Shown piece by piece: positions 2,241 to 61,500 of a DNA stretch of 64,000 nucleotides (position 1 is the stretch's first letter; the number at the start of each line of letters is the position of its first letter). Source of the DNA: Antitrichia curtipendula (Eukaryota; Streptophyta; Bryopsida; Hypnales; Leucodontaceae); contig OX579638.1 of NCBI GenBank assembly GCA_951230915.1, positions 6,962,696 through 7,026,695 on the forward strand. Reading direction: 5' to 3'. The notes under the pieces are model-generated. The model worked only from the letters and a program-made list of their open reading frames with translations, was not told the DNA's origin and did not search any database. The position numbers and the translations under genes were made by a program.

Positions 2241-2339
2241 TGCCTTAACGAGTTTAATGTTTGAAATCACCAAGTGTATGAATTTGTGAGAATAAATAAG
2301 AAGTCTAATATTTTAAGCTAGACTAGGGGTCGTCGTTGG

Positions 2340-3070
2340 GCACCTCTCGGTGCCGAGAGGAGCTTGAATATCCAAAGCTTTAATCTCCTTCTAGAATTTA
2401 AAAGTGTAATCTCTTTGAATACTTTTGATATATGCAATCACCCATATTTGCAACTTTGATGGTTTTAGATGCTTGGCCGTATTTCTTTATCTTTTTCTCA
2501 TTAATCATTGTCCACTTCTTAGAAAATGTGTAAAATATAACAAAATGTATAATCAAGCGGAGCCAACTCATTCTTCCTCCTAGCACCGAGGCCAAGATTC
2601 ACCCTTTTGGTTTTGATCTTTAGCTCCAAGCGTTGGATCGTAGTGTCACTTAGAATTACCAAATGTTCAAATGAAAGAATAGGTTCATTAGAGTGTTGAG
2701 GTCAACTCTACCTTCCTCTCGGTGCCGAGAAGAAGCCCATCACCTAGATATTTGATCTTCAACTCAAAGAGCTGGACTATAGTTTTTTTTCCTTTTTTCA
2801 ATAAGAAGGATTTGTAGCTTGAGCTAGGATTTTTGAATGTTCAGAATTGTGTATTCAATTGATCAAGGAGGCCAGACCCCTAAACTTTTTGCTATTCAGC
2901 TCCATGAGTTGGAACGTAGTCTTCCCGAATTGGACTGTAGTTTCCATTTTATTACATAAATGTTGGATATGTACCTTCTTTTACAATTAGCAAATTTTTA
3001 AATATTAGAGAAGATTAAGCAAGTGGAGGATAGCTCTTCATTCCTCTTGGTGCTGAGGGTTGTGTTGGGT
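2340..3070. repeat. Diverged repeats with CTCTCGGTGCCGAGAG palindrome
   Basis: The palindrome CTCTCGGTGCCGAGAG (about 2344) recurs as CTCTCGGTGCCGAGA (about 2717) and as CTCTTGGTGCTGAGG (about 3045). A second motif (TTGATCTT-AGCTC-GTTGGATCGTAG and variants) recurs near 2610, 2750 and 2890. A further CTCTCGGGGCCGAGA lies near 9347. This looks like a diverged repeat series; no gene is seen. Confidence 0.55.
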
Positions 3071-3099
3071 GTAAGGTCATACCTCGCGGAGTGCACTCT

Positions 3100-4822
3100 T
3101 CAGGGTTTACATGGGTACCCTACATGCAAGGGCCTATTAAGGGAGGGCTATGTAGGTAAATTTTTGTCATTTTAATAGGGCTATATTTACCTAAATTTCT
3201 AAAGGGTGGTAATTTAATGTACCCTATGCTATATTTGAAAAATAATTGTGTGATCATTTAAGGTACCCTATGTTCATTATAAATACAAGGTTTAGTGAAA
3301 ACAAGTTCATACACCTAAGTAAATAAGTCTAACAAAATTTGGTTTTAGGGTTAATACATGCAAAATGTGAGTGTTGATTTGTATGCAAAAACATTGTTAT
3401 TTAGTGTTTAAAACACGTTGCAGTAAAATGCACTATCACAGTGGAGATATTGTACAAGGAACTACACTTTTACACCAGAGTATTAGATAATTAAAACATG
3501 AAATCTCAGTAAATATAGAAGACGACCAACAAGCAAGCTCAATTGAACACTAAGCATGTGGAGAAAACTAGAATGCTTAATAGCAAAATAAGAATTTCAT
3601 GGTTCAAAGCACTTTGAAGAAGTGAAACAAGAAATTCTAGAAATGAGAACTCCTTCACATCCTACCAGTATCCTAACCATCTTGCATTGAACTTTCAAGC
3701 ATACAAAAGAACATACTCACAATGAAAGCACATACAGACAAGTTGAATTCGGAGTTTGTATATCCGATTGGATATGCACAAAGTCCGTGCCAAAATCCTA
3801 CTTATTACTCAGTGTTCAAGATGAAGCATTTACAAGAATGGCATGAACAACGTGTATTTATGAATACACCACAAAATTATATCCATCGTTACTGTAGGCC
3901 ATTAAATTTAAGTTTGAACTAAATCCATTAGTAGGCTACTAAGAAACTTGATAGCGTAGTGAAAGAATTACTTCATTTTATCTTGAATTGATTACATGAG
4001 TAGATCAGCAAGAAACTTGGTAACGTACTGATGGAATTTCTTCACTGGCAATTGGTAAGAGTTGAGGGTGGAGAGGTCCTCTTTATAATATAATCCAATC
4101 TATGGACACTCAAAAGATATGGGATAACTTGAAGATGAGAGCTTCACTTCTCATAGTCAAGTTATTTTGAAAATGTATAAAGTCGTGTACACACAAGTGA
4201 AACCCTACAACGACACTATCTGAGAAGGTAACGTCATCAAACTGAAATGCCTTAAACCTTGTTCATCTACACATTGCTATGGAAAATTTTACTTTAATTT
4301 CATCCATCCACTACAACTTGTGTCTTCACTGTCACTGTGTAGCTCTGTCCAATTACCACCCTTCTTCAGCCACTCTTATGACACTTGTTGTATATTATAA
4401 GCAATTAAGCATCCTTAAAGCTTTGGAGTAACAAGATGTATACACGCATTTGATACTACATAGGATACTCCTCAAAGAAATACTAACCCAAGTAATACAA
4501 TATTATATTCATTAATTTCTTTAATTTCTTTTTTGCTAGGCTATTGTAGAAATTAAAAAAAGTTAAATCTCACTAATAAACCCTACCCTTTATTATTTAT
4601 AAAGACTCCAAACACATTGCAATAATGCTAACTTATTTCTAAGTCATGTCAAAAATTTAGGAGCAAGGCAATTAAAATAACCCTTCATTTGATTGCACGT
4701 GTACCAAAAAAAAATAGGGAGTGCACTCCCCAAGGGTCATACAATCAAGAATCAATTTATTTCCTATATTTGGATGCATTATGCAATTTGAATTTTGACA
4801 TTTTATACTTTTGTTTTTGTAG
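3100..4822. other. Non-coding stretch before the pseudogene
   Basis: AT-rich DNA without a recognisable gene. A segment near 4090-4190 (GATATGGGATAACTTGAAGA, then CTCATAGTCAAGTTATTTTG) resembles the ends of the foldback elements at 47.7 kb and 56.0 kb. Upstream exons of the pseudogene may once have been here, but none can be recognised. Confidence 0.5.
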
Positions 4823-7800
4823 GTTCAACCACAGGCAACTTCTATTTGTGAGATTGTCATACAACCTTCAATGGTTGAATCTCATGCATCTGATCAACCA
4901 GAAATTGAAACTAATGAAGACATTGAAGATGATGATGAGCCAATGGACGACTTCACCTCAAAAGATGCTCTTCGAAGATTGCAAAAAGTTAACTCAGTGG
5001 CTTCAATTTCTAGCTTGAGAATGAAGCCCCATGCAATCTCTCGTCTCCGATATTTTGTGTCGTCTTGTTCAAATGCCTATGGTCAGACCAGCATTGCAGT
5101 GTGATTTGAGACGGCTAGAGCAAGAATATGTACACGGATATTTAGATGGATCGGCTGTTTTTCACGTTTCAGTTACTAATGAGCAAGGGAAAGAGCAGTT
5201 TGTGACTGACAATGAAAAAGTTGCATGGGGTCCTCTTTGGAATGAAGAAAATGACATTTTTAATGCAACCTTGAGTGTTACCCCAGAGTTGCAGCATTTG
5301 AAGAACTCAAAGTTCTTTGTTTGCGATGGAAACCATCGACTTCTTGCTTGGTCATCTTACATTTCTCGTCACCATGAGTAAGACCGAGCTTGGCATGTTT
5401 CCGTGGATTCTATCTTATTGGAGACAAAGGGACGGATTGGAGCTGTCATGCATGACATCAATAAGTAAGTGTTCCTTCTATAATTTTATATGTCATTTTT
5501 GGTTTTCTCTATCAAATTTATAATGTCTAACAATTTTTTTTTATCATTGATTACAGATATACCGAGAATTCCTTCATCAAAACTAGTTTGGTACACACCT
5601 TATACAGGGTTCGAAAATATGGAGTCATGACCTTGGATAAGTTCTCCGAACATCTTAGTCCAATAGAGATGTCGCAATGCACTCAAAATTTGAGGAAGTC
5701 TTGGTACAACATGTCAACAGAGGTCTTCACAGCATTCATTTATCGAGTAAGGTTCACCTTTGCTTGAAGACCTTTCAATTTCCTTTAATTTTCGAATTTG
5801 CTCTTATGTCTTATCTAAATGCTTTGCATGAATTTTTTGTTGCAGTACGAGATTGTTGCTGCAGCAGATATTGCAGTGAGGTTGTACAAGGAAGATACAG
5901 TGGTGGAGGATCAAACTGAAGATGGAGTTTTAGCTGCCATGAGATTAGGCACCAAGGAGAAGACAAATCAACTTATGAAGAAACTGGGGAAACTTACTGT
6001 TGTGGCTAATCCTAGCCTTGGAAAATGACTGGCTTGATGAGGTAATTGCCTTTTGTCACCATACTCTTCTATTCCTATGCTATTTCATTTTGTGTTTATA
6101 CTCATTTATGAGTTGGTTTTGTGAAGATTGAGCGTCATTGGAGCACAAATATTGTTCCTGAGATGACTCTTGAGAAATTGCAAATGATAGCTACCTGCAA
6201 TGTGAAGACAGAGTACAAAGTCAAGTGGTTGCGTTGGTGGAATTCATCTATCCAAACCATAGAAGCACATCGTTTTCCACTGAAACCAGTGGGAGAAAAT
6301 GACTTGAAAAGTTTTTTGGTCAAGGCTTGTTGGTATTCAGGGGTGAGTGATTCTAACTAAATTTTGAATATTTCATTTCAGATTTGTTCATTTGTATTTA
6401 CTATTTTGATCAATTCTTTAAGTAATTACATGTTAATCAATGATTTCAACTTACTATTACAGTTTTCTTAATGTGTAGATTGAGGATGCAGCAACAGATA
6501 TGTTTGGCACTATTGTGAAGAAGGATAATCTGGTTCCAAACATGGACTCGCTCAAAGAGCCTGAGGTACTATCAGAATATATTGAAGGCTCGAGAATCCG
6601 ACTTTGGGATCATGCCTTTTTGGTGCATTTTAGGGGACACAATGTCTTCAAGAAGTCAGATTCTTTTATGAAGCACAAGGGCTCGGATCTTCTGGTTAAA
6701 CGAGTCATATTCAAGTAGCACTTTATTTGATTTGATGAACCACAAGTCAATATTCATTTGTTTAACTTTATTTTTTGAAATGTTTCCATACCTTTGATAC
6801 TCATGTACAATTCTATAGGTAATTCAAGTGTGAGTTGCTGCCAAAGTCAGCGATTGCAAAGCGTGACCTCCCACCTTTTCTCGGTACTTGGTTGGATGTG
6901 ACCACCGAACATTGTATGTTCTCGCCTTCACAATTGAAGTGGTGGACTACTGCACACTTGAAGTTAGGAGCCTGATACCTTGATTGTCCTCCAGAATTCA
7001 CTCTTGTTCCTGAAGATTGTTTAAAGAGTTCCATTGATTCTATGGAAGTTTCTCCTGAGTATGAGGAGTTCGCTGGATTGGATGAGGACAATAGGGCAAA
7101 AGCTATGAAGAAGAGAGAGGAGGCAGATAAGAAGATTGCCATTAGGAATTCAGAGGCCGTAGATAAGGTGCTTCAGAGGGCCACAAAAAAGAATGCTAGA
7201 ATTGTTGAGAAGGAGAAGGTGTCATCTAAATTTACAAGTTCAAGAATGACTTTGATGCAATCGATTCCTGGATCATCTGCATTAGATCAAGGATCTCAAT
7301 TCCAAACATCCAGTTCTAGAGGTACAAAGCGCAAGTCTGAGCATTTGGCATTGACGGAGGATGGCTTAGTGCATGGTCCCACTGTCATTGATGTGATCAA
7401 TGATAGTGACATCTCCATAGACGAGTTCATTTGTAACTCGTCTCTAGCAGCTATCCTTGGTGATCCCTTACCTCAGCTATACGATGATATTATAAAATTC
7501 ATGGACAAGATGCGGTCCTTCTTCTCTTGAATTGTTTTTATTTTCAAATATTTATGTACTTCTTAGTTAATTCTAACATTTCAATTTGTTACAGCACATG
7601 GCAGATAAGGATTGATTCTTCAAAGGAGTTCTTAGTGACAAGTCCCATATAGATCTAATCATCGCCAACATGCCTAAAGGGCTACCAGTACCTGATGTGT
7701 CTAATCCTCGCACTGCTATTCCAAAGTGGAATCAGCGACCCGATACATGGCTTGAATCTCTTTTTGAATTTGTTGATGGACACTTATATGATGACGGGGC

Positions 7801-8951
7801 ATTGATTATTATCCACCCTTACAAAGCCTAGGCCAAAGCTGACATTCTTGGCTATGCAAATCCTTATGCATTTAAAATACAAAAAGAATGGTGGGGGATG
7901 AACTGCTTGCATTTGACGTCACCTTTGGATCATTCTTCCACGGTAAGTTTAATTTTTAGCACAAGTTCTTGAGATTTATCAAAATTTTATTGTAACCTCA
8001 TTAAAATTTTATTAACATTCACCTACTTTGTTTTGCAGACGTTGCGTTTGGGAATCTCACTATGGGTGAGAAACTTCCCAAATCTTGGACCTTCAAAGTT
8101 TACATTTCAACTATGCCCAAAGCTAAAGGCACTTGAGGTAGACGTTGCACGTGACGACATTCTCCAGAACTATACAAAGACAGAGACAATGGCCATGGAC
8201 AATGGTATTTCTTGAAGAGGAGCACGTGAAGAGGACCCTCGATTTATGCAGATGTTCACTGAAGCATCGTCTTTCTTGGGTGACGTAGTTCTAGATTGTA
8301 CAGCTTCAACAGGTAATTTATACAATCTATCTTTCACATTGTAATTATTGTTTTTGTATATTTGTTTTGTTAGCATTTTAACTTTAATTTAATATGAATG
8401 TTTCAGGTGCTGCCGTCCATGCTTGTAGGCTTCTAGACAGACATATCATTGCTTTGGAAGAAGACAAGGCCATATTTGATGCCTTACTTGCCCCTCTTAT
8501 TTGTGCGGTTGAGGTTGTTCCTGTAACACCTACATGTGTGACATTACCATCAGACGACCCGGATGCAGAGGATGTTGTGGTTCCACATGTCGTCAAAAAA
8601 AATCGATTCAGTAAGTAAGTTTTTCTTGAATATGTTTTCTTCTTGAATGAAAAGCATTACTCTATAATAAAAGATTTTTTACTTTGTATTTTGTTTGTAC
8701 AGCATGATGGGTACTAAGGCCATACATCAACCGTTCTACTCATTGCCCACCTTTTTCCCAAGCCCATAGAGACCATACATACTACCCCGTATGCTGAAGC
8801 ATTAGCTGTTGATTATACATCTCAACAATTTATTCCTATACGGGATAAAACAATCACTTTAGATCCCAGGGTATTGCAATTTCTATATGTAAGCGTTGTA
8901 GAAGACGATGAAGAGCCATTGTGCACTGATAGTAGTGTCCATTCTCAGTGA
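4823..8951 (+). pseudogene. Decayed ParB-like domain + N4/N6 amino-methyltransferase gene
   Basis: Ten exons are visible: 4823-5464, 5557-5746, 5846-6041, 6127-6342, 6479-6714, about 6819-7530, 7595-7942, 8039-8312, 8407-8610 and 8703-8951. Most introns are 85-136 nt with GT-AG ends. The first exon carries MPMVRPALQCDLRRL and VCDGNHRLLAW, resembling the ParB/sulfiredoxin-like nucleotide-binding motif. A lysine/glutamate-rich linker lies near 7042-7200. The 3' exons carry DLIIANMPKG, DDGALIIIHPY, WWGMNCLHLTSP and, across the 8312/8407 junction, VVLDCTASTGAAVHACRLL. I read these as methyltransferase motif IV followed by SAM-binding motif I, the permuted order of beta-class N4C/N6A enzymes. Breaks: in-frame stops at 5379, 6973, 7613, 7829, 8213 and near 8715, and frameshifts near 5025, 6022 and in exon 8. 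The introns show it is not a processed copy. Substrate and function are unknown; the domain calls are by eye. Confidence 0.72.
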
Positions 8952-10845
8952 ATATCTTCTTCATCTATGTGATTCTATTTTGAGTGCAGTCATCGTTGTA
9001 AGATCAAATTTTCATCTTCTACACCTTTATTTTCATTTATCAACATGCTTATGGTAATGTTGCCATTATTTCATTGTTTTGAACTTCCAATTTTTAGTGT
9101 GTTGGTTTTTAATTTTCATAATGAAGGCAATATAACCGCTATTTCATTGTTTTGAACTTCCAATTTCATTTCTGATGTTTATGGTATGGTATGAAATGTG
9201 ATATCTATGGTACAATCTCTACTCCTTAGTGTGTTTTTGGGATAAATGACAATTAGTTTATAAAGAACAATTTGAAATGGAAAAACTTTGTTACTTTAAA
9301 TTTTGTTGGAGTTGATCAATGCTCTTTTACATTGTTGGACCTCTCGGGGCCGAGATGAAGATCCAATGCTTGCATTGTGATTTTTAGCGAGATTGAAACC
9401 TAAGGACATATTTTTGTAATTGTTACAAACTTAAAGGACAATGCAAGTTCCTTCGACATTTACAAAGCCAAACTATGAATTGCAATATGCTACTTCAATT
9501 TAAATGTTATTAAGCTTAATTTGAAAAATGTAGCTCAAATACACTACCTCTCAGTCCTTTTGAATATTTTTTCAAATGGTATATATTGTCATTTCTTTGA
9601 CACTTTGAAGATAGGATCCCTAAATCACAAAATACATCAGTCCTAACCTCTTTCTATTGAATTTTTCATGGTTTGAATTCAATGAGATATCTATTCCACC
9701 ACCGTGTATATCACTATTATTTCCATTTGATTTATCATTTATTCCAATTTTCAACATTCTTGTATTTATTATGATTTATGGAAAGAAATTTTCTTAAGAA
9801 TAATAATGAATTTAAATCAAGGTTTGTTACAATGAGAATAGTGAGACTAAAATGTACACATACATTAGTATATATAAAAAATACTAGATTTTTGAAATGT
9901 CTTTTTTAACTGTAAATATAACCCTAAAAAAAATTTAAAAGACATAAAATATCTTTTAAGAGTTATAATCAATTTGGATTGATAGAGTAGAAATATTATT
10001 TTAATATTTCTACCCTACTTTTGTATTATTCTAGAGGCCACGGCCATAGGTCCAACATTAGAGTTTACCCCAAGAATCTATATGCTCACAAGCTCACAAG
10101 CTCATAAGCTCATGCTTGCAGGCTCACAGAATAGCAACCCTGCCAAATATACAATGCAAATACAAATATAAAAAAGATTTGAATATTGCGTTGTAGGCGT
10201 AAATTATAGTGTAGAACATCTTGGTGTGAACCCAAATTTTTTGCCATCATATAATTAATAAATTGATGAATTTTGGTTATACACACAATGTTCAAATTGC
10301 AAAAAAATATTCAATTTTGGGGTTTCTTCAAAATTTCAAAATTGGAATAAACACTTGACATTATAAATTACATTTCATTAGTTGGACTCAATTTTGAAAA
10401 AATCCACTTTTATGGCTAAAATTTCATTCGAGAGTATGTAAAGAACTAGAAGTTGCCAAACTATCATGAGCAATAGCAAGTCTAGCACCACTTGGGCAAA
10501 TAATTAATAAAAGAAGCATCCACTTTCAAATTTATAATGAGTTGGGTTATTGAAAATTACTTTACATTAAAATTTAGTTGACTATGTGTTTCTCACAAAC
10601 CATCTTTAGTCTACGGTAGGGTAAGAAGACAAGCTCTTTATATCGGTGGGATATTAAGAATTAGATCAACCCACATGGGATATGTAAATTAGGATTTTGT
10701 AAAACCTCAATTGCTCATTGTCAAATTGAAAGCAAGAATTGTATTCAAAGTAATATTTTAGACCTCATTTAATCATAGTAAAATAAGTTTTTTCTTAAAA
10801 CTTCAAACTAAGTAAAAATAGAAAATCAAGTTGAATTTCAATTCT

Positions 10846-11000
10846 AAAAACCTTTTTTTTATTTTGAACCTCCAATCAAAAATTATGGACAAAGTTCAAA
10901 GAGGGAGGTTTGAAAATGTGAGAAAATGTCCCTTCCTCTATTTGTGAACTTTGTCCATAACTTTTGATTGGAGGCTTAAAATCACAAATGGGATTTTGGG
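10846..11000. repeat. Foldback (hairpin) element core
   Basis: CCTCCAATCAAAAATTATGG (from 10869) is mirrored by CATAACTTTTGATTGGAGGC (from about 10955), with a centre near 10923. It matches the centres of the foldbacks at 47508 and 56281 and the single arm at about 39480-39770. The left arm seems to continue to about 10640; the right arm stops near 11000. Confidence 0.7.
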
Positions 11001-14000
11001 CAAGTATCTACGGGCTGAATTTTTGTCGTGATTTTTTGAATTTTTTTTAAAGATAGAAAAACTGATTAGCTTCATAAGAACATAATTTCTTTTTCAACCG
11101 ATGCCTAGGAACAAAGTTATGCTTAAATAAGCTCAAAACAAGGAACATGGTAGCAAAAAAAAATTCTAAAATTTGAATTTCTTTCTTTTGAATTTTTTTT
11201 CTCATAGAGTATATTTTTTTTCTACATGGAAAGCTTTGATTCATTCCATTTGGATTTGTTATGAGATAGTTATGGACAATCTTGTCTTTTGGGCAATTAG
11301 AGCATCTTCTTGAAAAAATAATTTGTACAATTCATTTCTAAATGCAATTTTTACAATTTAAAGAAAGATAAAAAATTCCACATGGTTTATTTTGCTTCCT
11401 AAAACAATCTCACTATTAGGATTAGTGCATTTTGATTCTATTTTAGAGATATTAATAATTTAGATTTTCCTTCTATTTCATACCTACTTCTACTTAATGT
11501 TATTTTAAAGAATAAAAATTAAGATTTTTTGAATGATTTGTTTCCCCCCAGACACTCAATGACTCAATTCAATTCCCAAAAATAAAGATTTAAAGCTCAA
11601 AACTTTGTAGTGCAAAAGTTTTAATTAAAAAAGGTTCAAAGGCAAAGAATCTAGTCCGGCAATGTGTTGAAAAACTTGTTTTTTTCACTTTAAACACAAA
11701 TGTCTTGCAACTTATGTGGTCAAAATTTCTGAAATTTTTACCACACATTCTCATACTAGTTAGGTGTAATTTCCTATGGTTAGATGTGCAAAAAAAACAT
11801 TTTTCAAATTGTTTTACTTTTTGCTATAGAAATGGCTATTTTGAGCGATTTTTTTGGCAAATAAAAAAGGCCTTGGTCCTTTAGGGGTAAAATGATTTTT
11901 GATATTCTACTTTGAACACAACTATTATGTTTTTACTACGCATGGTCGAGCTCACTTGCAAATTATCCCATACCTTGTTAGGATTGATGAAGGACGATGG
12001 ATTTGATGATAAAAACAACCTCTCTATCCATCATTCTCACAAAATTTCAATGAAGTAACTCCAACATTTTTGCCATCATGAATTTCCTTGATGATAGATG
12101 GTGAAATGATGGATTGATATTTGATTGAAAAATGATAAATTTTCAACATTAGTTGAGTTTAATTTCCCTTGATTTAAGCTCCTACAGTAATTAATTGCAA
12201 AAAAATTCAACTTCTTTTTTTTCAATTCTTTTTTGTCAGACGTGCTAGTCACCTATTGTAATTATGTGGTGGACTATTTTCAACCATTCTTTTAGGGTTT
12301 GCTCATTAAAAAATGGTCTAAATGATTTCATTACGGTAAGATTACGTGGTATATTCTTCAACCAAACTTTAACAAATATTTTAAAATTTAAATAATGTAA
12401 TTTGTATTGTAAAATCATTTGGAAGTGAAGAATCTTTATCATCTAGGTGCCACAAATTGGTATTCTTAGCGCTTCTTAAGTAATCCTTGAAATGCATGAG
12501 AGAAAATTTTGTGTCCTTCAAATGATTCCAAGTTTTAGTGAGGAGTTTTCTTAAACTCATTTTCAAATGAATGAACAATGTTAGATTTTTTAATGTTCCT
12601 TGTGATATCTTTTGACTATCCTATTGTCATATACTCTACTTTAGCAACTTTTTCTCAATTTTTTTATTTGAATTTCAGTCGCAAAAATGATATTTGTAGA
12701 CCTTGAAATTAACTAATGAATTGAAACTTATGAAGTCTAGTTCAAACTCTACTTTGAAATTTCTAAAAATTCCATATTTTATTGTAATTTCAATTTTTGT
12801 CTGATAAACATGGAGTGTTGATTTTTCCATTTTAAAATGTCACAATAAACAGATTTGCACATGCAATATGTTCAAATATGAAAAAGGATCAATACACATA
12901 ATATTATTTATCAATTTTCCAAGTTTTTTTGCATTCTTGAATAGGTACCCTTCATTAGAAGGAAATTGAGCCTAGCATTGAGTTACTTCCCAATGTTCCA
13001 ATGTAAAAAATGTGGAGCACTGATGATGATGTATACATATGACAACATACTTCTCTTAGAAGACATCCAAGTAAATACACTTACCACTGTGGATGAACAA
13101 CAAAAAAATTTCCTTGTAGATTCATTCATCAACTCTTAAATTGGTGTGGTGTTACAAACACTGTAATCACAATACAATTGGAGGTCTCAAAGGCAAGATG
13201 AGATCTTATATTTTAAGGAAGAGTATGATCTATGTCCAAATCAACAAAAAATTAAGAAAAAGGTATTGATTTCGTTTGTTGATTTGGACAGTGTCCAATA
13301 GAAAACTGTTGATTATTTTGGTTGATTTGATCAAAGCCAAAGAAAAAATGAAAGAAAAAATGTTATTTGCAAAATACAATTTATCATGTGGACAAATCAA
13401 CTGCCATGCAAGCGGCAACCTCTACTAAGTGGACAATGCTGCCAATGGAATTTAAAATTAAGACACTAAGGTTGGAAAATCAAGGCTTCAACCACTATAC
13501 CAAGGTTGAATGCATGAGTGTATCTATGTGTTGTTGTTATTTTATTCTTTTCTCACTTTGGTGCTCCAAATTTAGTAGACTCTAGAGGCCATTTTCACCT
13601 TCATACTTTATCCATTTTTTATGGAAATTACTGAAAAAACTTTGTGTGCACTATAAGTCTAATTTTTTGTGGATTTTTTTTTCTTCAATTTGATTAAAGA
13701 TGTTTTAAATTACTAACAAACATTTCAATAGAAGGTGGTTTGGCAAAGAATTACTTATTTTAAAATTAAAATTTGAATAGTTTTAAACTTAATTAAAATT
13801 TGAAGAGTTCAATTTGAGTACTTCAATTTGAAATTTGAACTATTGAAATTTGAACAATACAAAATTTAGAACTTGAATAGTTCAAAACTTAAAACTCAAA
13901 TGTTGAAGAGATTTTGAATAATAGAGTATTTTAAACAATAGAATATTTTGAACTATTTTGAACTATTTTTGTTGATTTGGTCATTGTACTATTAAAAATC

Positions 14001-16721: not shown

Positions 16722-19700
16722 ATGGCTATGGCCATGGCGATCTCGCTGCGGCCTCCGCTTTGCCGTGCTCACGCGCTAGGATCGATCTATGGTGCGGGGC
16801 TTCACAACAGTACCAGGCCTGCTCATCGCGCCTTTTCATCATCATCCGTCTCTTCCTTGTCAGTACTCCGCTTCGCATCCCCTGCAGGAATCTTTCTTGC
16901 GCTTTTTTGGGGAGGAGAATATTGTGCGGCTGATTACATAGCATGTGGCGTTGAACGTTGTTGATATGATTAGAATGTGTAATTTTCTTGATCGGTGTTC
17001 AAACGGGCATGCTTGTCTCATTATGTCGAAAAGACTTGTTTGTAACAGAGAAATTTATAGGTAAAGAATGAACTCCTGATCAAGAACAAGGATGATGAGA
17101 AATCTTGTTGAAGGAAGTTACAGTTCAGATGACATCTTTGCTTACCATATCGCGAACGGAATTGAGGTGATCCGTTCTTGGAATTTGGCTTCTCGTTAGG
17201 AATCCTTAAGCGTATTTAGCTCGAACTGGATTCGAGTGTTGGAAACGGTGTCGTAAGCTTCGGTATTGACAGTACGTGCTAATTTAACTAACGATACCCG
17301 GAATATGGCGCAGAATTTCGGAGGAAGAAATTCACCGTTTCGAGGAGGATGGCGCAACCGTGGTGCGTCAGCTTTTTCCACCTGAATGGCTGGACCAACT
17401 CCGCGCTGCGGCCGAGGACAACATGAAGAATCCAGGTTGTATTGTCATCCTGTGAAACGGTTTCGACTTTTCAGTGGGAATTGCGGTTTCATTGGTTTTA
17501 CTGAGTCCACGTACTTAATTTATGCAAGATCGTTCCTAAAGTATACAGGAACAGAGATCTTGCAAAAGTCTCTTAAATTTCACAGTTTCCGTCTGCCACT
17601 TATTCGAGGTTTCCGATCAATTTGATTAGGAACGTATTGCGTCTGATTGTCTTTCTTGCGCTTTCTTTGCAGGTGCACTATGTGATGAGCATGTAAAACC
17701 TGGCGAGGTGACAATTTTAACCCTTGGATCGCGTTTTATCTTACTGCCATTTTCCAAACTTTAATACCGGGCATATGAACGAACCACCAGCTCATAGTTT
17801 CACCATGTCATATGTTCTCTTTGTATTGGGCTCATACGTTAAGTGCCGATATGGTGGCAGCCAGGGCGCTTCCATGATGATCAATTTCTTTGGAGACGCC
17901 ACGAGACGATGCGGCTCTTCATTCACGAGTCTCCTGCTGCTGAGATAGCTCGGCGCATGATGCGGTTGGTCATCTCATCTCTGTTGTCTCATTTTCCTTG
18001 TTCGTCTTCCTAAGCTCTATTACTTTGGCAATGCCGCCTTCTTCGTACCGCACGGGTTGATATCGCTCGAGTGAATGCGTCCTCTTGACTAAACGATAAA
18101 GGTGTCGCTGTGGAGCACTGCATAATGTGCACCTTGCTTCAAAATCATTTAATCTGACAAACACAAGGATCTACTGCAATGTATATTAATGAGAATCTGA
18201 CAGGGTTGGCATGTGCTCAAAACAATTGAGACTGAAAGACACGATTTTCTCCTTTTCGTTGTTTCTGCATTGTTTCAATGTAGACTTCAGTTGGGTAATT
18301 TACCATTGGTGTGAATTGAACTTGATGTAGGGGTAAGCAGGTTCAGTTGTTCTATGATCAACTGTTTGTGAAAGAGCCTGGCACACGGAAGGCTACGCCG
18401 TGGCATAATGATCACAGCTATTGGCAATTGAAGGGGAATCAAGTAATTTCTTTGTGGCTGGCGCTGGATCATGTCCCCAAATCCTCCTGCGTCAAGTATG
18501 TTAAAGGATCGCACAAGTGGCAACTTCTTCACAAGTAGGCTCCTAAATTCATATTCACTGGACATCCCCAGTCCGGGATATTTTCTAGATTCCTTGCCAT
18601 ATTTAAGCTTCATGTGTTTTAGGTTTTTGCAATACCAAATGGATTGATCTGTAAGCATATAATATAGCAAAGGCACCGTTTACATCTTAATACTTGTAAT
18701 TACTTACAGTTTCCATTATTTTGGCTAAGTAAGTTGCTAAATTTTTTGTAGGCATTGTTCCTATTTTAGCTTTCGTGAGAAATAGCAGGTGATTTTTCTA
18801 TGTATGCATTACTGACGCTTGTTGGATTGCATTCCTAATTAGGATTTCTTCATTCTCAGGTGATGAGGAGCGCTACAAGCAATCTACCTCACTACCTGAT
18901 ATTCCAGATATCGAAAATAAACGCGACGAGGTATGCGTTGAACTTGCTTGATTCAGTAACATATCCATGGCATCTTTTTCCAACAATGCATTGTTCAGTC
19001 GCTTCTACAATCTTAGTTCAGTTCTTGTACGATTAAGAAATTGATATAATCATCACCCTCTAACGACTTCGATGCCAATTTAGATTTCTGTTTTTTTCTT
19101 GATTGTTAAGACAAGACTCTTTTCATACGCTTGAATTGAAAATAGAAATAGTTCCTGTAGGAGTTTCATGGGTTGTTATGAACTTGAGAAATATGATGGG
19201 CAACCAAATTAAATTTAAAAATTGTGTGGGATGCAAGTATGAACTCTTGACATGGGATATGGAGCCTGGTGACTGCTTGATACACCATAGTTTTGCCGTC
19301 CATGGTGCTCCTGGTATTTCTGCGCAAGCTGAACGTCGTAGAGCGTATGCAACTCGCTGGTTTGGGGAAGATGTTCGCTTTGATCCTCGCCCAGGTAGTT
19401 ATAATGCCCATTGACCTGCTTATTTTTCAGATTTGTGTTGCTTTTGGGATTCGTTTTGATCATGGCATAATTTATTCCTGAAGTTGTACTGTTGCACCTG
19501 TTGTGGATTACCGTACAACAATGTACATGTCAATACAGAGATGGCTGATAGTGTTGTTATCTTGGATTTGAAAAGTTGGAACTTATTAAGAACTCTTAGT
19601 TTTATTGATTTTCATAATATGGGATTTTTTCTGCCGGTTTAGGTATGAACCAGACTGACTTGAAAAACTGAGCAGTCCTTACCGTATTGACATATGTTTT

Positions 19701-20897: not shown

Positions 20898-21531
20898 TTA
20901 ACTTCTAAATGCCCAAGGCCTTTTCTGAATTTGCTCTAAATTGAACAAAAAATAAACTTTTTAATAAGTTGTATTAAGTCTTTTTGAATTGTAACCGTAC
21001 AAATTTAAACCAGACATGTTAGAAATCATATAGGAAAAGAAAACACAACAATATTACTTATGGATTGAAAGATTATAATGTTTGATCACAAGGGTGTTAA
21101 AATTGTAAAAGTGATTTGAAGTCTTTCAACCCTCTTTTCACATGTCAAATCTAAAAGTTGGCGACCAAAAAAATATGAGGATAAAGAGCTAACATGCATA
21201 ATCCCAATCAATTTATGGCTTCTCAAAATCTACTCTACAATTTTTTTAAATGAATTTCTAATGTGATTTTTTCTCCAAGATCTAGTGTATTTGAGACTCA
21301 TTTCTAAGAGCCCTCGACACTACAAAAAGTCAAGATTGCAGTGGAAATCTTTGCACAACACCTTGAATAGAAAAATCATAATCATTCATTTTAATAATCA
21401 TGATGCTAAAACTAGACTTCAAAAAAAATCTTTTAAAAATATAAACTATTAAAAATGATAATTTGGTAAGATTTTATTTAACTTCAAAGTTTCTTTGACA
21501 CCACATTTTGGTGCCTCGGGCATTTAGAGCC
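20898..21531. repeat. Dispersed repeat, copy inverted relative to 55.0-55.5 kb
   Basis: The ends CCTTAACTTCTAAATGCCC and GGGCATTTAGAGCCAAGC are inverted matches. The interior (AATTGAACAAAAAATAAACT, AACCAGACATGTTAGAAATC, GATTATAATGTTTGATCA, AACATGCATAATCC) matches the reverse complement of about 55030-55460. Non-coding; the element class is not identified. Confidence 0.6.
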
Positions 21532-27311: not shown

Positions 27312-30300
27312 CTACAGCTCGCCTGAATCAGAAATAACACACTTGGACAGGGGCTTGTCACTTCGGTCCGTCTCTTGGCTCTCAATCGTCCTCACGACAT
27401 CCAAGCCTTCAATGACTTGGCCGAAGACAACATGCTTGTTGTTTAACCAAGGAGTCTGAAGATAAGCATCACATATTGTCCATTAGAGGGATTCTCAATA
27501 ATAGCATTATCAAAGCACTTCATGCATCAACATTATTGATCCCTAAGAATCATGGTTACAAGAAAATCACAATGCACGACTGGAAGAGTGCCACTCAAGT
27601 TTTGGGGCTTAGATAGACCACTTCTAGCATGCCACCAATTTGGAAGCGGATAATCTGAGTTTAAGCAGATCAGAACCGAAAATTAAGGGGTCCAAAAACA
27701 TCTGCACCTCTGTCCTACCTTAAGCGTTGAGGATAAGCAGATGAGAGAAGGTGAGAAGGAGGAATATGGTAGCAGATGACTGCCATTCATATCTAAAGAA
27801 ATTGAAATAAATCATTTCAGAAGGTACCAATATAAACAGGAAATCCTACCAAAAATAAATTTCAACAATAGAATTCAATGGCTTGAAAATGGGTATGGTC
27901 ATCTGAAATTAGCTTCCAAACAGGACGTCCTATTTTCAGTTTGGACACTTAGGGAGTAAACAACCGTCAATAGAGGGGCAATAATCTTCACCTCAACAGT
28001 GCAAAGGAAAAACTGGCTTCCGTTCGTGTTGGGTCCAGCATTCGCCATGCTCAAGATCCCAGGTCCGGTATGTTTCACTGCATATTCAACCAAAGATTCA
28101 AATGAGCCTACGTAACATGATCTACTCGCATGAACATTTTAGGTCAGAACTAAAGGGGAAAAATAAGTAAAAGAAGCATAAGTCGAGGGAGAGAAAAATT
28201 GCATGCATAGAATTCTGATTTGCACAACAGATCATAATCAGTCAGACCATGATGGGAAGAACTGAGAGTTCAAATAGCCACTCATAAGAAAAGTACTCAC
28301 ACTTGAAATTCTCATCCTTGAAGTTTCTTCCATAAATGCTCTTGCCTCCAGTACCCTGTACAGCGTTGCATATGACATTGTTTAAAAGCCACATCAACAT
28401 TCATTGCAGTGTCTTTCTACTGTTGCTTAAAATTCGGATCCACAAACGTACTGAAAAGCACATAAAAACACTAAGTTGGCAATAAAACGGTGTCATTTCA
28501 GTGCTAACACGTTGATCTATAGCTACAGCACTAAAACGGTTAAGAATCAGTGGTCAGGGACTGTCGTGAGGAATAAAAGACCGACGCAGATTCTACACAG
28601 ATTCTACTGAAAGCAGCAAGTTTTGAGGTGTACATTGCCCCTGTCAAAGTCGCCACCCTGAATCATGAAATTCTTGATTACACGATGGAAAGCTGAACCT
28701 TTGTAACCAAAACCCTTCTCACCTACAAAACGATGAATAGTACAGAATAAGAGAGGAGCAATTAAAATTCTAACCCATCCATTATTTCACGATCAATAAT
28801 GAGGGTACAAGAGACAAACTATCACTGACATCACCCCATCCTCAAGTGAATACACAAACAAGAAACACCAGCAGCATTGCAGAAGCAATACACATCTTCG
28901 ACATTCTGCAAGACACACGCTAAACTATTCCATGTCAATCCATTCAAGGCCAAACACAGCCTTCAGGTGGCACAAACTCCAGTCAAGTCCATCACCGATG
29001 GCTGCAGCGGAATGGCTGCCCAACTTGTGAGTAACAACAAGGCTCTCAGTAAAAATAGACTGTTTCAAGATCTTTAAGAAAGCATCCGAAAGAGAATCGT
29101 CCTATGGTCGAAGGGAGGCGCTCCCCGTGAACTATAAGGAAGATTCCCTCTACAATGACGCTTAGAAGTTCACCGAAACAGTCTAATTCGACTATAAACA
29201 CTGTTTCATAAGAAAAAAAATTCAAATCATCCACGGCAAACACAGAGAAATACCTGTGCAAAGGGCCCGGAAGTTGTTGACAGTATCAGGGACCTCCCCT
29301 CCGAAAAGGCCAAGGACAACACGGCCAGCGGGTTTGTTGCCGATGCTGATGTCAAAGAAGCATTTCGTTGTAACCTTCGCCTGGGTCTTGACTTCTGTAG
29401 CTTGGTCACTCTGCCAACCAATCCACTAGTCAGGAATGTAAAGGTACGTAACAGTGGAACCTTAAATGAGGTGCAAGAATATTTCCCTCTCATGACATTC
29501 GACTGTTGCTATCATCCAATACGAAGCGTCCTAGAAATCATAAGTATTTGCTAACCTCTGGATTGATTTGACTTTCGACTAGAGTTATTTGCAACACCAA
29601 TGCATGCTCTCTTCAATTCTAGAAATCAAAAACCACAAGTATCTCCTCATTTTCTCTTCGTTGGTAGACTTACTAAAGGAAAAGTTGTGAACGTGACATA
29701 TTATATGCTTGATCCAAAACCTCGGAGGCATACAGGGTTAAGTGGTTGAACTCTTCAAGAGGTTGATCCCCCAAATAAACCAAAGTGCTAGACTACAGAG
29801 CTGAAAATTCATCTCATTCAAGTGATGACGAAGACGATACCATAGCACGAGTGGTAGTCCACTGAGAACGATTGCTGAAGTCTGTCGATACCGAAGAAAG
29901 GCGCAGCTGCTGAGATCCAGCCGCAAAACAGCTGGAGGAGAAACCAAGGGCCTGTGTCCTTGCCACGGGGTTGCTCATGCCACTGAGGCGAGAAATGGCT
30001 GCCCTCGCCACCTTGCATCCGTGCATCGACATGAGATTGGGCTGCAATGTCCAAGTGACCTCAAAATATGAGCAGCACATGGAGCTAATGACATCAAATG
30101 ATCTATAATCCTTCACCCCTAAAGAAAGAAAGATTCATGGTTACAAAATGACCAATTCAGTGCTTGGACAGTAAAAAATGCAAATCAAATTGGTTCAAAT
30201 TCTATATCACAAGAATCAGTTCAGCACATTGCATGTGTGGCGGTCGAGATTGGGACAAAAAGAATCCCGTCCACTCAAACTGCTAAACAAACAGGAGGCC

Positions 30301-37508: not shown

Positions 37509-38267
37509 TTAGACCCTCTTGCACGTCTTACTAAGCACACTCACCGGCTGCGTGGCCGTCGGCGGCTTAACCCGGACGTCACAGTTCACGTGCACGTTGA
37601 ACGTCGGCGTCGTCAGAGCGCCCACTTTCAGTCGCGCCTTCACGTTCACACGAAGCAGGAGCGGCACGTTTTGATTCCCAATGTCCGCTTGCAGCAACGC
37701 CCCCTTCGCGGGATCCACAGAGAACCCGGTGGCCGTGAAGTTCCCGGGAATGGTGATGTTTTTGCGATGGCCGTGGTAGAATCCCGGAATGGTCTGGTGG
37801 TTGAACACCTGGCCCTGGTACGACGTGTCGACGCCGATGGAGTTGTACTTAATGCCGATCTTGCCGTTGCCGTTGTAGCTGATGATGGTGTAGTTGGCGG
37901 CTACGTCGAGCGTGGGGTTGGGCGTGGGCGTGTAGGAGAACTTGGAGATGGTGACGTCGCTGAGGTCGTAGGTGGGTGTGCGGATGGGACGCAACACCAG
38001 CCAGATGATGAGCGCCGCGATACCGAGTGCGATCGCGGCCGTGATGAGCATGGACACGCACCCCGTGAAGCAACAGCAGCACACGGCCATGCCGGAGCTG
38101 CGGCGGTCGCGCCTCGGCTTCGGCCCCGTGGCGGGATTCGGAAGCGTAGACGCGTTGGCCTGGTGAAGCTTCGTGAAATGAAACGGCTTCGGCGCGCTCG
38201 AGTACGTGCGCGAAAACCCGCTATTGCTGAACGTCCGAGACATGTTGCTCATGAATCTGGTCGTCAT
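37509..38267 (-). CDS. NDR1/HIN1-like (LEA_2 domain) membrane protein
   Basis: One uninterrupted exon of 252 codons. The ATG at 38267 lies in an ACC-ATG-ACG context; the frame upstream of it has no other ATG before the non-coding leader. Order: a basic, Ser-rich N-terminus with KPRRDRRSSG; a cysteine run (CCCC at about 63-66); one hydrophobic segment (about 71-92, LITAAIALGIAALIIWLVL); then a beta-rich LEA_2 domain with YDLSDVTISKF, SIGVDTSYQG and a C-terminal CDVRV. This matches plant NHL proteins, which are type II membrane proteins of the plasma membrane or endomembranes linked to defence and stress. Extracytoplasmic N-glycosylation sequons (NYT, NIT, NFT) fit that topology. The gene is clearly more GC-rich than its surroundings, which makes a long antisense frame open as well. 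The exact role of this member is unknown. Confidence 0.9.
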   Translation of the reverse strand: MTTRFMSNMSRTFSNSGFSRTYSSAPKPFHFTKLHQANASTLPNPATGPKPRRDRRSSGMAVCCCCFTGCVSMLITAAIALGIAALIIWLVLRPIRTPTYDLSDVTISKFSYTPTPNPTLDVAANYTIISYNGNGKIGIKYNSIGVDTSYQGQVFNHQTIPGFYHGHRKNITIPGNFTATGFSVDPAKGALLQADIGNQNVPLLLRVNVKARLKVGALTTPTFNVHVNCDVRVKPPTATQPVSVLSKTCKRV

Positions 38268-38930
38268 GGTGACCACCAACCCTGCTGCTTCCCCAACCCT
38301 GTCACGGGAAACCCTCGCCTACCAAAACCTCTCAATAAGATCTATCTAGATCAAAAACATCCACCTGGGCGATAGATACCAAACATCCGCCGCTCTCGTT
38401 CTCTTGACGAATTCGCCCTGCAACCACCTGCTTGGGACTGCAATTTCCCCAAAGTATCACCTTCCAGCGAGAATTGGCACCGACGTCTGTAGCGCTTCAC
38501 AAAGTACCTCCAAGAGATCCCAAACGCGAGAAACAAGGACGTGCGACGAGACGCAAAACCTGCTATCTAGCCTACCCTTTCCCTACAAATTGGCTCCCAC
38601 AAGAAGGGAAGCGTGCAAAGTAAGGAGGAGGAGAAGCAGCCGAAAGACCAGGGTCCGAAGAATGACACTAGCAGTACCCGAAAGGATGAGAAGCAGAAGC
38701 TGTGAGTAAGCAGATGTTTAGAAACGCAAGGAAAAGACTGTTGTGTTTGAGACGAGAGAGAGAGATGGGACTTACAAGTACCACCTCGTCGAGAGAACCG
38801 CGGCAAGAGCAAAAGAAACACGGTTGTGAAGGCGAGACGAAGACTAGAAAACGAAGACCCACCGCTTGCAGGCCCCAGCTAGTCGGTAAGGCGCTACCAA
38901 GCTATTGAGGGCTCCCCCACGCGAGACGTT
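38268..38930 (-). promoter_or_regulatory. Upstream region of the LEA_2 gene
   Basis: Balanced-composition DNA with CT/GA-rich stretches (for example GACGAGAGAGAGAGATGGGA near 38750) that suits a leader and promoter. No convincing TATA box or intron pair could be fixed. Confidence 0.35.
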
Positions 38931-54073: not shown

Positions 54074-56069
54074 TTGTTATGAGTGCCAATTAATCCAACA
54101 TTCCCTTGTTTCAATGAACAATTTTGCTTTTTTGATAATGTAGATCCTTTTCTTTCTTTCTTTCTTATAAATGCAAAAAAGTCCATTCGACGTTGAGATT
54201 GTCGGCTTTGCATTGGGTCAATTTTTCCTGAAGAAAAATCTAGCACTTCCACGGAATGGCCCGCCATATGCCGTTACAGGGCTTGTATGCCGAGTACGCA
54301 TTGCGGAGGCAGGAATCGGCAAAGTCCGTGTTGTCGGAGAAAAGAGACTCATGAGTTGACTCTCGACTCGGTGTGCGACAGGGCTGGATGGAAGTGTTGG
54401 CAGACGCACGGGCAGAGTACTGAGGCGGTGGCATCAAATCAAAGTCACAGGAAGATTCGGGCGAATCTTATGAAGCGTAACTTCGTCACAGAAACATCCG
54501 AGTTCAGTTCAGTTGTTCAGTTTGATTGGACAGACAGGTGAATAGATTCTCATTGAATGGCTCAACCCTTCTTCAGCTTGGCACGCCCGTTGAAAGAGAA
54601 CAAAGAAAAGGGGGAAAAAGTCATGTGCTTTTCTTTCTGTGTTTCTTTGCACGTGTGCATGACTGAAACGGAGCTTGGGGTCCGAATGGTGCGCACAAAC
54701 TGTTTCCTCTCCGGTTGCCGCAACGCTTTCACTTACATGCAGGGCTCAATATAATATCGTCCTGCAACACGTGGCATGACTTGGAGGCAACACTACCCCT
54801 AAAAGGCCCCACGAGGCATCAAATTTGGGTGTCGACAAATACTTTGAAGTTAAATAAAACCTAACCAAGCTGTTAATTTTAGTAGTTTATATTTTTGAAA
54901 AAAATAAATTTGAACTCTAGTTGGAGCATGAAAAAATCGATTTTGAAAATGATTGATTATGATTTTTTTGTTCAAGATTTTGTGCAAGGGTGTCAATTGC
55001 AATCTTGACTTTTTGAAGTGATGCGGGCTCTTGGAAATGAGCCTCAAATGAGGCTCATTAGAGCTTGGAGATAAAATCACATTAGAGATTCATTTAAAAA
55101 AAAATGTAGAGTAGATTTTGATAAGTCATAATTTGATTGGAGTTATGCATGTTAGGCCCTTTATCCTCATATGTTTTTGGTGACCAACATTGTAGATTTA
55201 ACATGTGAAAAAAGGATTGAAAGACTTCAAATCACTTTCGCAGTTTTAATACCTTCATGATCAAACATTATAACCTTTGAATCAATAGGTGATATTGTTG
55301 TGTTTTCTTTTATTATCTGATCTCTAATATGTCTAGTTTAATTTCGTGCAGTTACAATTCCAAAAAAATTGATACAACTTATCAAAATGATGACTTTTTG
55401 TTCAATTTAGAGAAAATTCCTAAAAGCTCAAAAAAGGTCCTAGGCATTTAGGGGCAATCTCAAATATTCAATTTATAGTCTATTTTAGAAGGAATTTTTA
55501 ATTTTTGACTTCAAATATTATTAAAAAATATTGGTTTGTATACTAGTTAATCTAGCCATATAGATATGGTCTCCGGATCATATTCTTCTAAGTTGTATTT
55601 TATAATATATCTTCACAATTTTGGAAATCTGGACTACCCCTTGATCCTTTCATAACATTTAGTAGCCTTCAAAGAAGCTGCCTTTGTGTCTCTAGAGGCC
55701 TCATCTACAAAAAACATCCACAGAGAAATCAAAATAAGTGTCAATGTGGTTTACATGGATTGTGGCAATACATCTATGGTGTGCTCTTTTCTTTTTGCTA
55801 AATCTTAGACCAACAAACCAAATCAACAAAGAAATGTTAAGATAGTTTGTCAATAATCTTAAGAATCCTTTGATAAAAAAAAATCAATGTCATTTTAACC
55901 CTTTGCCAAAAAATCAAGCAAAAAACTAAAATTTGATGGCCCAGTGAAGGATTTCCTTCAATGACATTGGTAGGAATGAAGGTTGAAGATGTTGTTTTTA
56001 TATTGAAATTAGTTACCCACCATGAACCCTCAAAGGATATGGAATCATTTGAAAATGAAAGCTTGACTG
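54074..56069. other. Gene-free stretch; balanced block 54170-54760 and repeat copy 55030-55460
   Basis: The block 54170-54760 has balanced composition and short open frames with no recognisable product; it could be a decayed gene piece. The 55030-55460 segment is the inverted partner of 20898-21531 (TTAGGCCCTTTATCCTCATA, TGATCAAACATTATAACC). Confidence 0.45.
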
Positions 56070-58596: not shown

Positions 58597-61500
58597 TCAA
58601 GTAGCAGTATCATTGATGATGGAAGCTTCGTGGTTACCATTTGTGATAGGCTTGAGATCAAGAGATTGCTCCTGACAAGATTGATAGCCATTTGGATTAT
58701 TACTTGCCCACTTCCACTGGTCTCGACACATCTCGTCAATTCCGTATTGTGCTCTGCAATATATCATAAACATAGGAAGTCTCAGAAAGGCAAATAGAAT
58801 AGGTGATGGAGCAGTTTGACTCAGTGGCACATCTATAAAACTTCACTAACTCATGAAAGTCAAAAGATGGAGTAAATCCCAACAAACCAACCTCAAAGTC
58901 AACACAAAATGTTCCTGTATACAGAAACGCAAAGAACCAAGGTCTCAAGAGTATGACCGCTGTGTAAAACCAAAAGAGAATACTACACTTATACGCACTT
59001 CAATTCAGTAAACCAATACCCTGGTCCGAAAAAAGATCACTACCTAGACACCCAAGGCAAATACAACGCAAGATGAGGATTGATAAACTTACGTCCAGCG
59101 TAGTTCTTTCCTTGCCTTGTCTGGGGTGCAATAAACTGTACTGCAATCTCCAGGACGTCGGTCTGTCATTCGCAGGGGTATTTTCTGTTGCAACCGGTCA
59201 AACTTTGGTTAATGACATTCCGGTCACAATAGCGACGCTGAGGGTACTGAGAAATTGTTGCCGAGAGCATAAAGGCTTTCCAACAAAAGTAGCAAGACTA
59301 AACGTGGGACTTTACCAATCCAGCAGCTTTCTCAAATGCAGCGACTATTTCGAGCACTGAAGTCCCTTTCCCTGTTCCCAGGTTGTAAGCAGTACATCCT
59401 GCACATCCACAAATCATCGTCAGATGAAAACACGGACCGCGGCATACAAGCACGTTCACGCTGGAACGCTGGATGTATGAGAAACGATAAAGAAGAAAAG
59501 AACCGCACCTATGTCAGGCGTCGTGAACAACTTATGAAGGGCGGCACTATGACCAGTAGCAAGGTCCTGGACGTGAATGTAGTCGCGGACCTGCAGAACC
59601 CCAAAACCAGGATCAGATCACGAATACTGTGAAATGTATGCAAAGGACACTTTATGTCTCCCACTTCTTAGGACTAGTGAAGTATGAGTTGGTAGAGAGG
59701 ACCGTAAATGAGAAACCTTGAATCTCTAAACCTCAGAGAGAACTTACCCCGGTGCCATCCTTTGTATTGTAATCACTACCAAACACTGTCAACTCTTTTC
59801 TTCTGCCCACAGCCACCTGTTGCACAAAGGGCATTAAATTGTTAGGAAAGCCCTGTGGATCTTCTCCAAGACGGCCACTGGGGTGAGCTCCCACAGGGTT
59901 GAAGTATCGTAACACTATGGTTCTCCATTCGGCGTCTGCATTGGTGATGTCGCGCATCATCTCTTCGACTTGAAGCTGCAGGGCACCCACACAAAATGAT
60001 CTTAGTATACACCTAATGGTATTCACAGTGCGTAAATCGATTGATTTACCATCAGTGGACACCTGTAAACCTAATTTCAAGAAGAAAACAAACAAACTGC
60101 TTTATTACAAATGCGTACTAAAGTTACAGTGTTAAGTCTAAACTTACCTTTGTGCGACCATATGGATTCAGAACATAAAGAGTTGATTCTTCTGTTACCG
60201 GGACTTTCTCAGGCTGTCCATAGACGGTTGCAGAAGATGAAAATACGAGCTGCACACGCGAAGACTCAGTCAAATTACATGTACAAAACGAGTTCAATTG
60301 GACTAATAGAGTGCGTTTCCATCAAATATCGCGAATAATAACAGAACATTTGTCAAATGTTAAACAAACTATTACTATCCCTCAAATCACAATTGCGCGT
60401 GAAGAACCAGAATTGCGACTCCCATTGTCTAAGGTATACAACAAGATAAGAAGTCACAAAACCTTAAAAAATAAAGGGAGAATTCTAGTGCATTCAGACC
60501 TTCTTGCATTTGTGAGTGTTCATAACATCCAGGAGATTCAAAGTTCCCAGGATATTGTTGATGTAATAAGGCAAAGGTTTTGCACAGCTCTCTCCAACGG
60601 CCTTCAAACCCGCAAAATGAATCACAGCATCGATTCTGCAAGAATTGAATATCCCTGGTCAAAACCTATTAGACTTTCAGTGGTCGGACATATTCAAGCA
60701 TTCAGAGTTCCACATTGATTTGCAGGTGCCACATAGTAATAGTTCATACAAGACCAAGTTGAATAGCATACCTGTGAAGATCGAAAACAGCTTCGATAGC
60801 ATTCTTGTCGCAAAGATCACCCTGCATAACCACATGACCCCAACTTTAAAAATTCAGCATACATATACAGCATGTACGCTCTGTACAGCCAGAAAATCCT
60901 CAAATATAATTCTCAATGAAATCTCACTGCAGGCAACAGACACTGCATAACTCTCACAAAAACACTAAAATAACGCCTGGTTGGATGAGAAGCTCCTGCT
61001 CGAAAAATGTCTGATACATCTCAAAAAATGAAAGCTACTTGAGGTACTGGTCTGTCACCAATTTTTCCGACGTTAATATTGGCAATTGGTGTATCAAAGT
61101 GTTCAATTCAACAGCGAATTCTGTATGGTATAATTTAAGAAGGAGAAAACAAATAAATATTCCCAAAACATTATTAAACCATTAGCCAGCAAATTTGACT
61201 TCGCGCTTGACCAAATCTTGTAAAATCAGCTAAAAGTCATAACATTTTAGAGAACCTTGTTGAGCACCCTCTAAATTGGTATGGAAAGGATTCCTTGACG
61301 CCTTGTTTTGCAAAATGCAAACTTGAGCTCAACTTGAACAAGTCAGAGCTCCTCAAGCCAGCGAGCCATTGCCTTCATGTGTAAGAGTACATCAAAACTT
61401 CAATATCTCTTCATTTGGCATGACTTTACTTTTAAATAACTCTTAGTTGGCACTGGTCTCAAAAGGTGCCAGGCCACTATTGAAGGATGTCATGATGAAC

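Follow-up and report, generated by a model that had tools for sequence, protein, structure and literature searches.

The window analysed here, a 64,000-nucleotide stretch of the Antitrichia curtipendula genome, carries at positions 4823-8951 of its forward strand the remains of an intron-bearing gene that joins a ParB/sulfiredoxin-like domain to a domain of the DNA amino-methyltransferase type. The locus is a dead copy that makes no such protein, and its relatives form an old, diverse, intron-bearing eukaryotic gene family in which the catalytic motif IV of the methyltransferases is changed in the few copies that show it. We consider it probable that the locus is a decayed member of an old family combining a ParB fold with a methyltransferase-derived part, and that intact members serve as a non-methylating, nucleotide-switched binding or scaffold protein. 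If this is true, such a family, with its ParB-methyltransferase architecture and its changed catalytic motif, would extend the reach of the ParB fold among eukaryotes.

Exons, introns and lesions of the locus

The ten exons recognised on the forward strand amount to 3,251 nt and are separated by nine introns of 80-136 nt, each of which begins with GT and ends with AG. The introns stand apart from the exons in base composition, with a GC fraction of 0.19-0.32 against 0.39-0.46 and a T fraction of 0.44-0.53 against 0.24-0.30. This agrees with a preliminary description of the sequence, which had proposed ten exons with short, mostly canonical introns, and the peptides quoted there are present in the order and on the strand that it gave: CDGNHRLLAW (5322-5351), DLIIANMPKG (7652-7681), DDGALIIIHPY (7790-7822) and LTSP in exon 7, and VVLDCTASTG (8285-8312), whose glycine codon is split across an intron and which continues as AAV from 8409. 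The features of the gene are as follows.

4823-5464, +: exon 1 (the first recognised), acidic leader and ParB/sulfiredoxin-like domain; 102 protein relatives, tblastn matches of relative P0006 at 4808-5050 and 5055-5465, fold of a relative
About 5050 and 5379-5381, +: defects of exon 1, a frame break and an in-frame TAA; tblastn of relatives, reading frame
5322-5351, +: CDGNHRLLAW, region of the ParB P motif (GxxR); conservation in relatives
5557-5746, +: exon 2, without known domain; open frame, GT-AG borders, no Pfam match at E ≤ 0.1
5846-6041, +: exon 3, without known domain, probable frame break near 6020; frames, splice borders
6127-6342, +: exon 4, without known domain; one stop-free frame, GT-AG borders
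6479-6714, +: exon 5, without known domain; one stop-free frame, weak donor GTAGCA
6819-7514, +: exon 6, Trp-containing start passing into a linker rich in Ser and charged residues, two in-frame stops (6820, 6973), donor GTCCTT weak; frames, splice borders
7595-7942, +: exon 7, carrying motifs IV and V of the methyltransferases and two in-frame stops (7613, 7829); seven relatives, relatives-only profile match to phage methylases
7667-7678, +: N-M-P-K, where catalytic motif IV (DPPY/DLPY) is expected; lines up with the DLPYG of phage methylases, relatives D-[MVQ]-[PL]-[EK]
8039-8312, +: exon 8, with VVLDCTASTG as the strand of motif I and an in-frame stop (8213); PF01555, E 0.00028, below the curated cut-off
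8407-8610, +: exon 9, remainder of the motif I unit (AAVHACRLLDRHIIALEEDKAIFDALLAPL); end of the PF01555, PHROG and CcrM profile matches
8703-8951, +: exon 10, the last, frame uncertain, without known domain; frames, splice borders

Six in-frame stops lie in the chosen frames (5379, 6820, 6973, 7613, 7829 and 8213), the number given in the preliminary description. Of the three frameshifts that it counted, the one near 5050 is directly visible, where tblastn aligns the relatives in two pieces, the first running to 5050 and the second from 5055; those near 6020 and in exon 10 we infer. Two donors look weak (GTAGCA after exon 5 and GTCCTT after exon 6), and the passage from exon 6 to exon 7 through the GT at 7515 is out of frame. 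The view of an intron-bearing, decayed gene is thus confirmed by GT-AG introns, stops and frame breaks, while 4823, taken at that time for the gene start, is not the start: because a splice acceptor (TAG) stands directly before this base, and because the alignment of the closest relative, P0006, already starts at 4808 and its sequence extends farther upstream, having a glutamine at the junction as expected from a CAG acceptor, the gene probably has an additional 5' exon upstream of 4823. Intron 7 (7943-8038, +) has a length of 96 nt that preserves the frame and contains only one stop, so that translation could almost pass through it.

A family with a shared exon end

The relatives, which come from assemblies of genomes and metagenomes, are short open frames of at most 274 residues. 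With exon 1 as query, 907 candidates yielded 102 relatives at E ≤ 10, whose E values run from 1.9e-75 to 6e-16 (40-72% identity over the aligned part), and with exon 7 all seven candidates proved to be relatives (E 4.2e-38 to 2.5e-30). When the protein collection was searched with the full-length query, 7993 candidates were scored and none reached E ≤ 0.001, which we think is explained by the entries being exon-sized open frames. Conversely, tblastn of the 109 relatives against the window gave 165 matches at E ≤ 1e-3, all of them at the gene locus.

The open frames of 70 of the 102 exon-1 relatives stop exactly at the Lys or Arg that precedes the donor, and 18 more go on with a tyrosine, the outcomes expected from GTAA and GTAT/GTAC donors. 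Judged from these open-frame ends, the exon 1 end is common to 88 of the 102; thirteen of the other 14 have no end motif and one has a different end. In a tree of 77 rows, comprising the window and 76 relatives of at least 150 residues, the window falls into an eight-row clade (100/100) beside P0006 and P0010. The shared exon end and the long tree branches suggest an old gene family, in line with the age claimed for the gene at the outset. An intact paralogue had also been expected elsewhere; the exons of the relatives are indeed uninterrupted, but they were seen as exon-sized open frames and no whole intact gene was among them. No publication on such a plant family was found among the matches listed, in a search to which subscription papers and preprints were out of scope.

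A ParB-type fold at the N-terminal end

The predicted structure of a relative has the ParB-type alpha/beta fold (ParB-CTPase/sulfiredoxin). In the alignment used for the fold, which held 71 of the 102 exon-1 relatives (a second held 38; short and similar ones were omitted), GNH of the P motif GxxR is present in 71 of 71 rows and its R in 66 of 71. When all 102 relatives were searched, the pattern was found in 97, 92 of which read (D)GNHR. To judge from GxxR, the domain may bind a nucleoside triphosphate (NTP).

At the level of sequence profiles the likeness disappears, as the ParB Pfam profile was matched by none of 39 members; the ParB-like 5' domain of the preliminary description therefore stands by fold and not by profile. 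The Protein Data Bank, searched by sequence, gave a best E of 0.24 and nothing related. None of the ten exons, read singly in its forward frames and not across junctions, contains the ParA-binding motif (LFI)G(KR)G(LFI), and neither the helix-turn-helix nor the C-terminal dimerisation domain had a Pfam match in exons 1-6 as typed, nor in exons 2 and 6. A tblastn search of phages with the ParB part gave 86 records, with a best E of about 3 among the 20 listed, and a ParB-like open frame lay near the phage methylase at 1 of 83 loci. ParB-like hints, below significance, came from DGQHR (E 0.13) and DndB (one of 39 members at E 0.28; two of 39, best 0.067, in another search). Matches to Dermatopontin (E 0.016-0.029), to KMP11 (in 4 of 39 members, with E 0.0047 at best), to tail fibres and further short matches were set aside as unrelated, and a single-sequence fold of exon 1 (predicted local distance difference test, pLDDT, 59.8) was not used.

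A methyltransferase-type domain with an altered motif IV

The motif IV region lies in exon 7, ahead of motif I, which spans exons 8-9. Alignment to phage methylases covers the two motifs, motif IV weakly in the single sequence. Motif IV before motif I means the beta order, so the assignment of the 3' domain to beta-order amino-methyltransferases is upheld. The match to PF01555 is confined to the motif I end (E 0.0015 for the whole, 0.00028 for the motif I stretch) with a score of 21.3 bits, below the curated cut-off of 26.7 bits. Exon 7 alone matches no Pfam family. All five PHROG matches are methyltransferases, and the NCBIfam match is CcrM (E 0.0064).

As a yardstick we used a profile of phage methylases from 58 of the 83 loci, the other 25 having failed the pattern (D/N/S)(L/P)P(Y/F/W)G plus GSG loop in an open frame of at least 150. 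The read-through of the window scored 21.8 bits against this profile, compared with 3.7 for the best of 2000 shuffles; motif I accounts for nearly all of the score, and in the single sequence the piece with motif IV scored -1.4 bits. For the relatives' exon 7, taken without the window, hhalign matched motifs IV and V to the phage profile with a score of 34.1 (probability 54%), where 300 column shuffles reached 29.2 at best; global hhalign did not align the two. The motif I loop LDCTASTG is read in the dead copy only. An alternative frame for the start of exon 7 was rejected, the relatives supporting the frame of the preliminary description; it had been used in the phage tblastn, the PF01555 stretch, the motif-piece scores, the exon-7 query, the global hhalign and some pattern scans, and the profile and hhalign tests gave much the same scores when redone in the right frame or without the window.

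At motif IV, 50 of the 58 phage methylases read DLPYG, a composition biased by a pattern that demanded an aromatic residue, whereas the window reads NMPKG and the seven relatives read DMPKG, DMPEG (twice), DVPEG, DQPEG (twice) and DMLEG. The consensus (D/N/S)PP(Y/F/W) is absent from all forward frames of the ten exons and from the seven exon-7 relatives; the look-alikes NQPF, DQPF and SPPW in four exon-1 relatives lie elsewhere. The change is common to the relatives and is therefore older than the decay of the window copy. In the bdelloid rotifer enzyme N4CMT, replacement of Ser and Tyr of SPPY by Ala is described as abolishing N4-methylcytosine (4mC) (PMC8885841). Since motif IV is changed in the relatives and the N4CMT motif mutant is inactive, the family is, as far as sequence can tell, probably non-catalytic. 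The gene had been put forward as a candidate writer of 4mC or N6-methyladenine (6mA); with a non-consensus motif IV that lacks the aromatic residue, in the window and in all seven relatives covering it, this role is not supported. Writing of 4mC in plants has been reported for Marchantia (PMC12344493, PMC8566409), and nothing here ties the family to it. A family of this kind would also caution against taking PF01555-like domains in plant genomes alone as proof of 4mC or 6mA writing.

Comparison with known systems and possible role of intact members

A 2025 survey of the ParB fold describes fusions with N6_N4 methyltransferases as commoner in phages and sulfiredoxin, a eukaryotic ParB-fold protein, as the commonest eukaryotic member; the word "plant" is absent from its main text (PMC12704722). 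The phage fusions described there resemble our gene in uniting a ParB-type fold (ParB-CTPase) and a PF01555-type methyltransferase in one protein, but the plant gene is split into at least ten exons, encodes about 1,080 residues with a long middle part, fails to match the ParB profile and has a changed motif IV. Cellulophaga phage phi17:2 gp019 (YP_008241514.1) has the same motif order and is 25% identical along 96% of the methyltransferase part (tblastn, E 0.03), yet it is a stand-alone protein of 253 residues whose motif IV is DLPYG and whose motif I has a GSG loop. Two eukaryotic 4mC enzymes, bdelloid N4CMT and Marchantia DN4MT, are compared here by description only and are reported to be of bacterial origin (PMC8885841, PMC12344493); N4CMT shares the N6_N4 methyltransferase domain and the presence of introns, and differs by its SPPY motif and a chromodomain (PMC8885841).

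Over the exons seen, the protein of an intact member would begin with the ParB/sulfiredoxin fold, whose GxxR phosphate motif would bind NTP, and continue through some 500 uncharacterised residues into a C-terminal domain whose presumed ancestor is an amino-methyltransferase of beta order and of the DLPYG type found in phages. With the active site replaced by D-x-P-E or similar wherever it was readable in the family, intact members would most likely not methylate DNA, and the methyltransferase-type domain may retain a surface that binds nucleic acid or S-adenosylmethionine. METTL14, a pseudo-methyltransferase partner, offers a comparison.

Neither the viral contigs (four pattern scans) nor the contigs of 84,980 prokaryote species (pattern scans) contained a relative of either part, at the sensitivity of these scans. 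The simplest account of the origin is an ancient transfer of a fusion of phage, bacterial or virus type. In a more specific version, which we offer tentatively as somewhat improbable in its full detail, a phage- or virus-type fusion entered an ancestor of the lineage of this plant, gained many introns, diversified into a large family and is now a pseudo-methyltransferase that acts as a nucleic-acid clamp or scaffold in eukaryotic chromatin, gated by cytidine or adenosine triphosphate (CTP/ATP). A clamp of this kind is not described in the text of the survey that was available (PMC12704722).

Could the family still methylate DNA through an unusual motif IV, the window copy being merely dead? 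The beta motif order, the similarity at motif I and the motif IV aspartate retained in all seven relatives would fit a 4mC or 6mA writer, as would the bacteria-derived 4mC writers reported in Marchantia (PMC12344493) and bdelloid rotifers (PMC8885841). We regard this as unlikely, because eight of eight sequences have Glu or Lys where motif IV calls for Tyr/Phe/Trp, because all 58 yardstick methylases have Y or F there (though chosen by a pattern requiring an aromatic residue), and because Ala in place of Ser and Tyr is reported to kill N4CMT activity (PMC8885841). Just as unlikely, in our judgement, is an enzyme of methyltransferase fold retargeted to RNA, protein or a small molecule via the Asp/Glu of D-x-P-E. 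The conservation of exon 7, where the aspartate is kept in seven of seven relatives and the following G and the WWGMN block in eight of eight sequences, perhaps exceeds what a pure scaffold needs; but beyond short, weak matches exons 7-10 match only DNA methyltransferases, and motif I reads DCTASTG, seen in the dead copy only, and not a glycine-rich loop.

A slightly smaller chance is given to a gene of a mobile element or integrated large virus, whose copies would be insertion remnants and not host genes. The many divergent copies in the protein collection would agree with it, and the nearest viral models include proteins of Cafeteria roenbergensis virus and Faunusvirus. Around the gene, however, no convincing terminal repeats were found: the inverted pairs spanning it (2300-11500) are only short (18-19 nt), AT-rich, 83-84% alike and non-collinear. 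The four viral-contig scans without a relative also speak against it, as do the spliceosomal introns, the shared exon end and the long tree branches of an apparently old family. Chance resemblance, with short motifs read into unrelated sequence, could appeal to the weak sequence profiles at both ends, but it is refuted by the family, with relatives to E 1.9e-75, by the fold match and by the shuffle controls, and its probability is negligible. A non-methylating binding or scaffold protein remains the reading that we prefer for intact members.

Neighbouring features in the window

The neighbouring Pfam matches are consistent with a plant nuclear genome.

18326-19411, +: phytanoyl-CoA dioxygenase, exon-like pieces; Pfam
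27902-28138, -: cyclophilin, exon-like piece; Pfam
37512-38318, -: long open frame matching LEA_2; Pfam E 4.2e-9, overlain on the other strand by an open frame of 290 residues
43668-44132, +: plant transposon protein PF04827, which we take to be of Harbinger type, a single frame that a stop divides into two open pieces; Pfam E 1.4e-30 and 4.6e-25
59736-62100, -: NAD-dependent epimerase, exon-like pieces; Pfam

A 19-nt near-palindrome (CCTCTCGGTGCCGAGAGGA) occurs four times, the copies being 74-100% alike, at 2343-2361, 2715-2733 and 3043-3061 upstream and at 9340-9358 downstream of the gene. Farther away, two inverted repeat copies at 20920-21518 and 54812-55426 share 82% identity over 615 columns.
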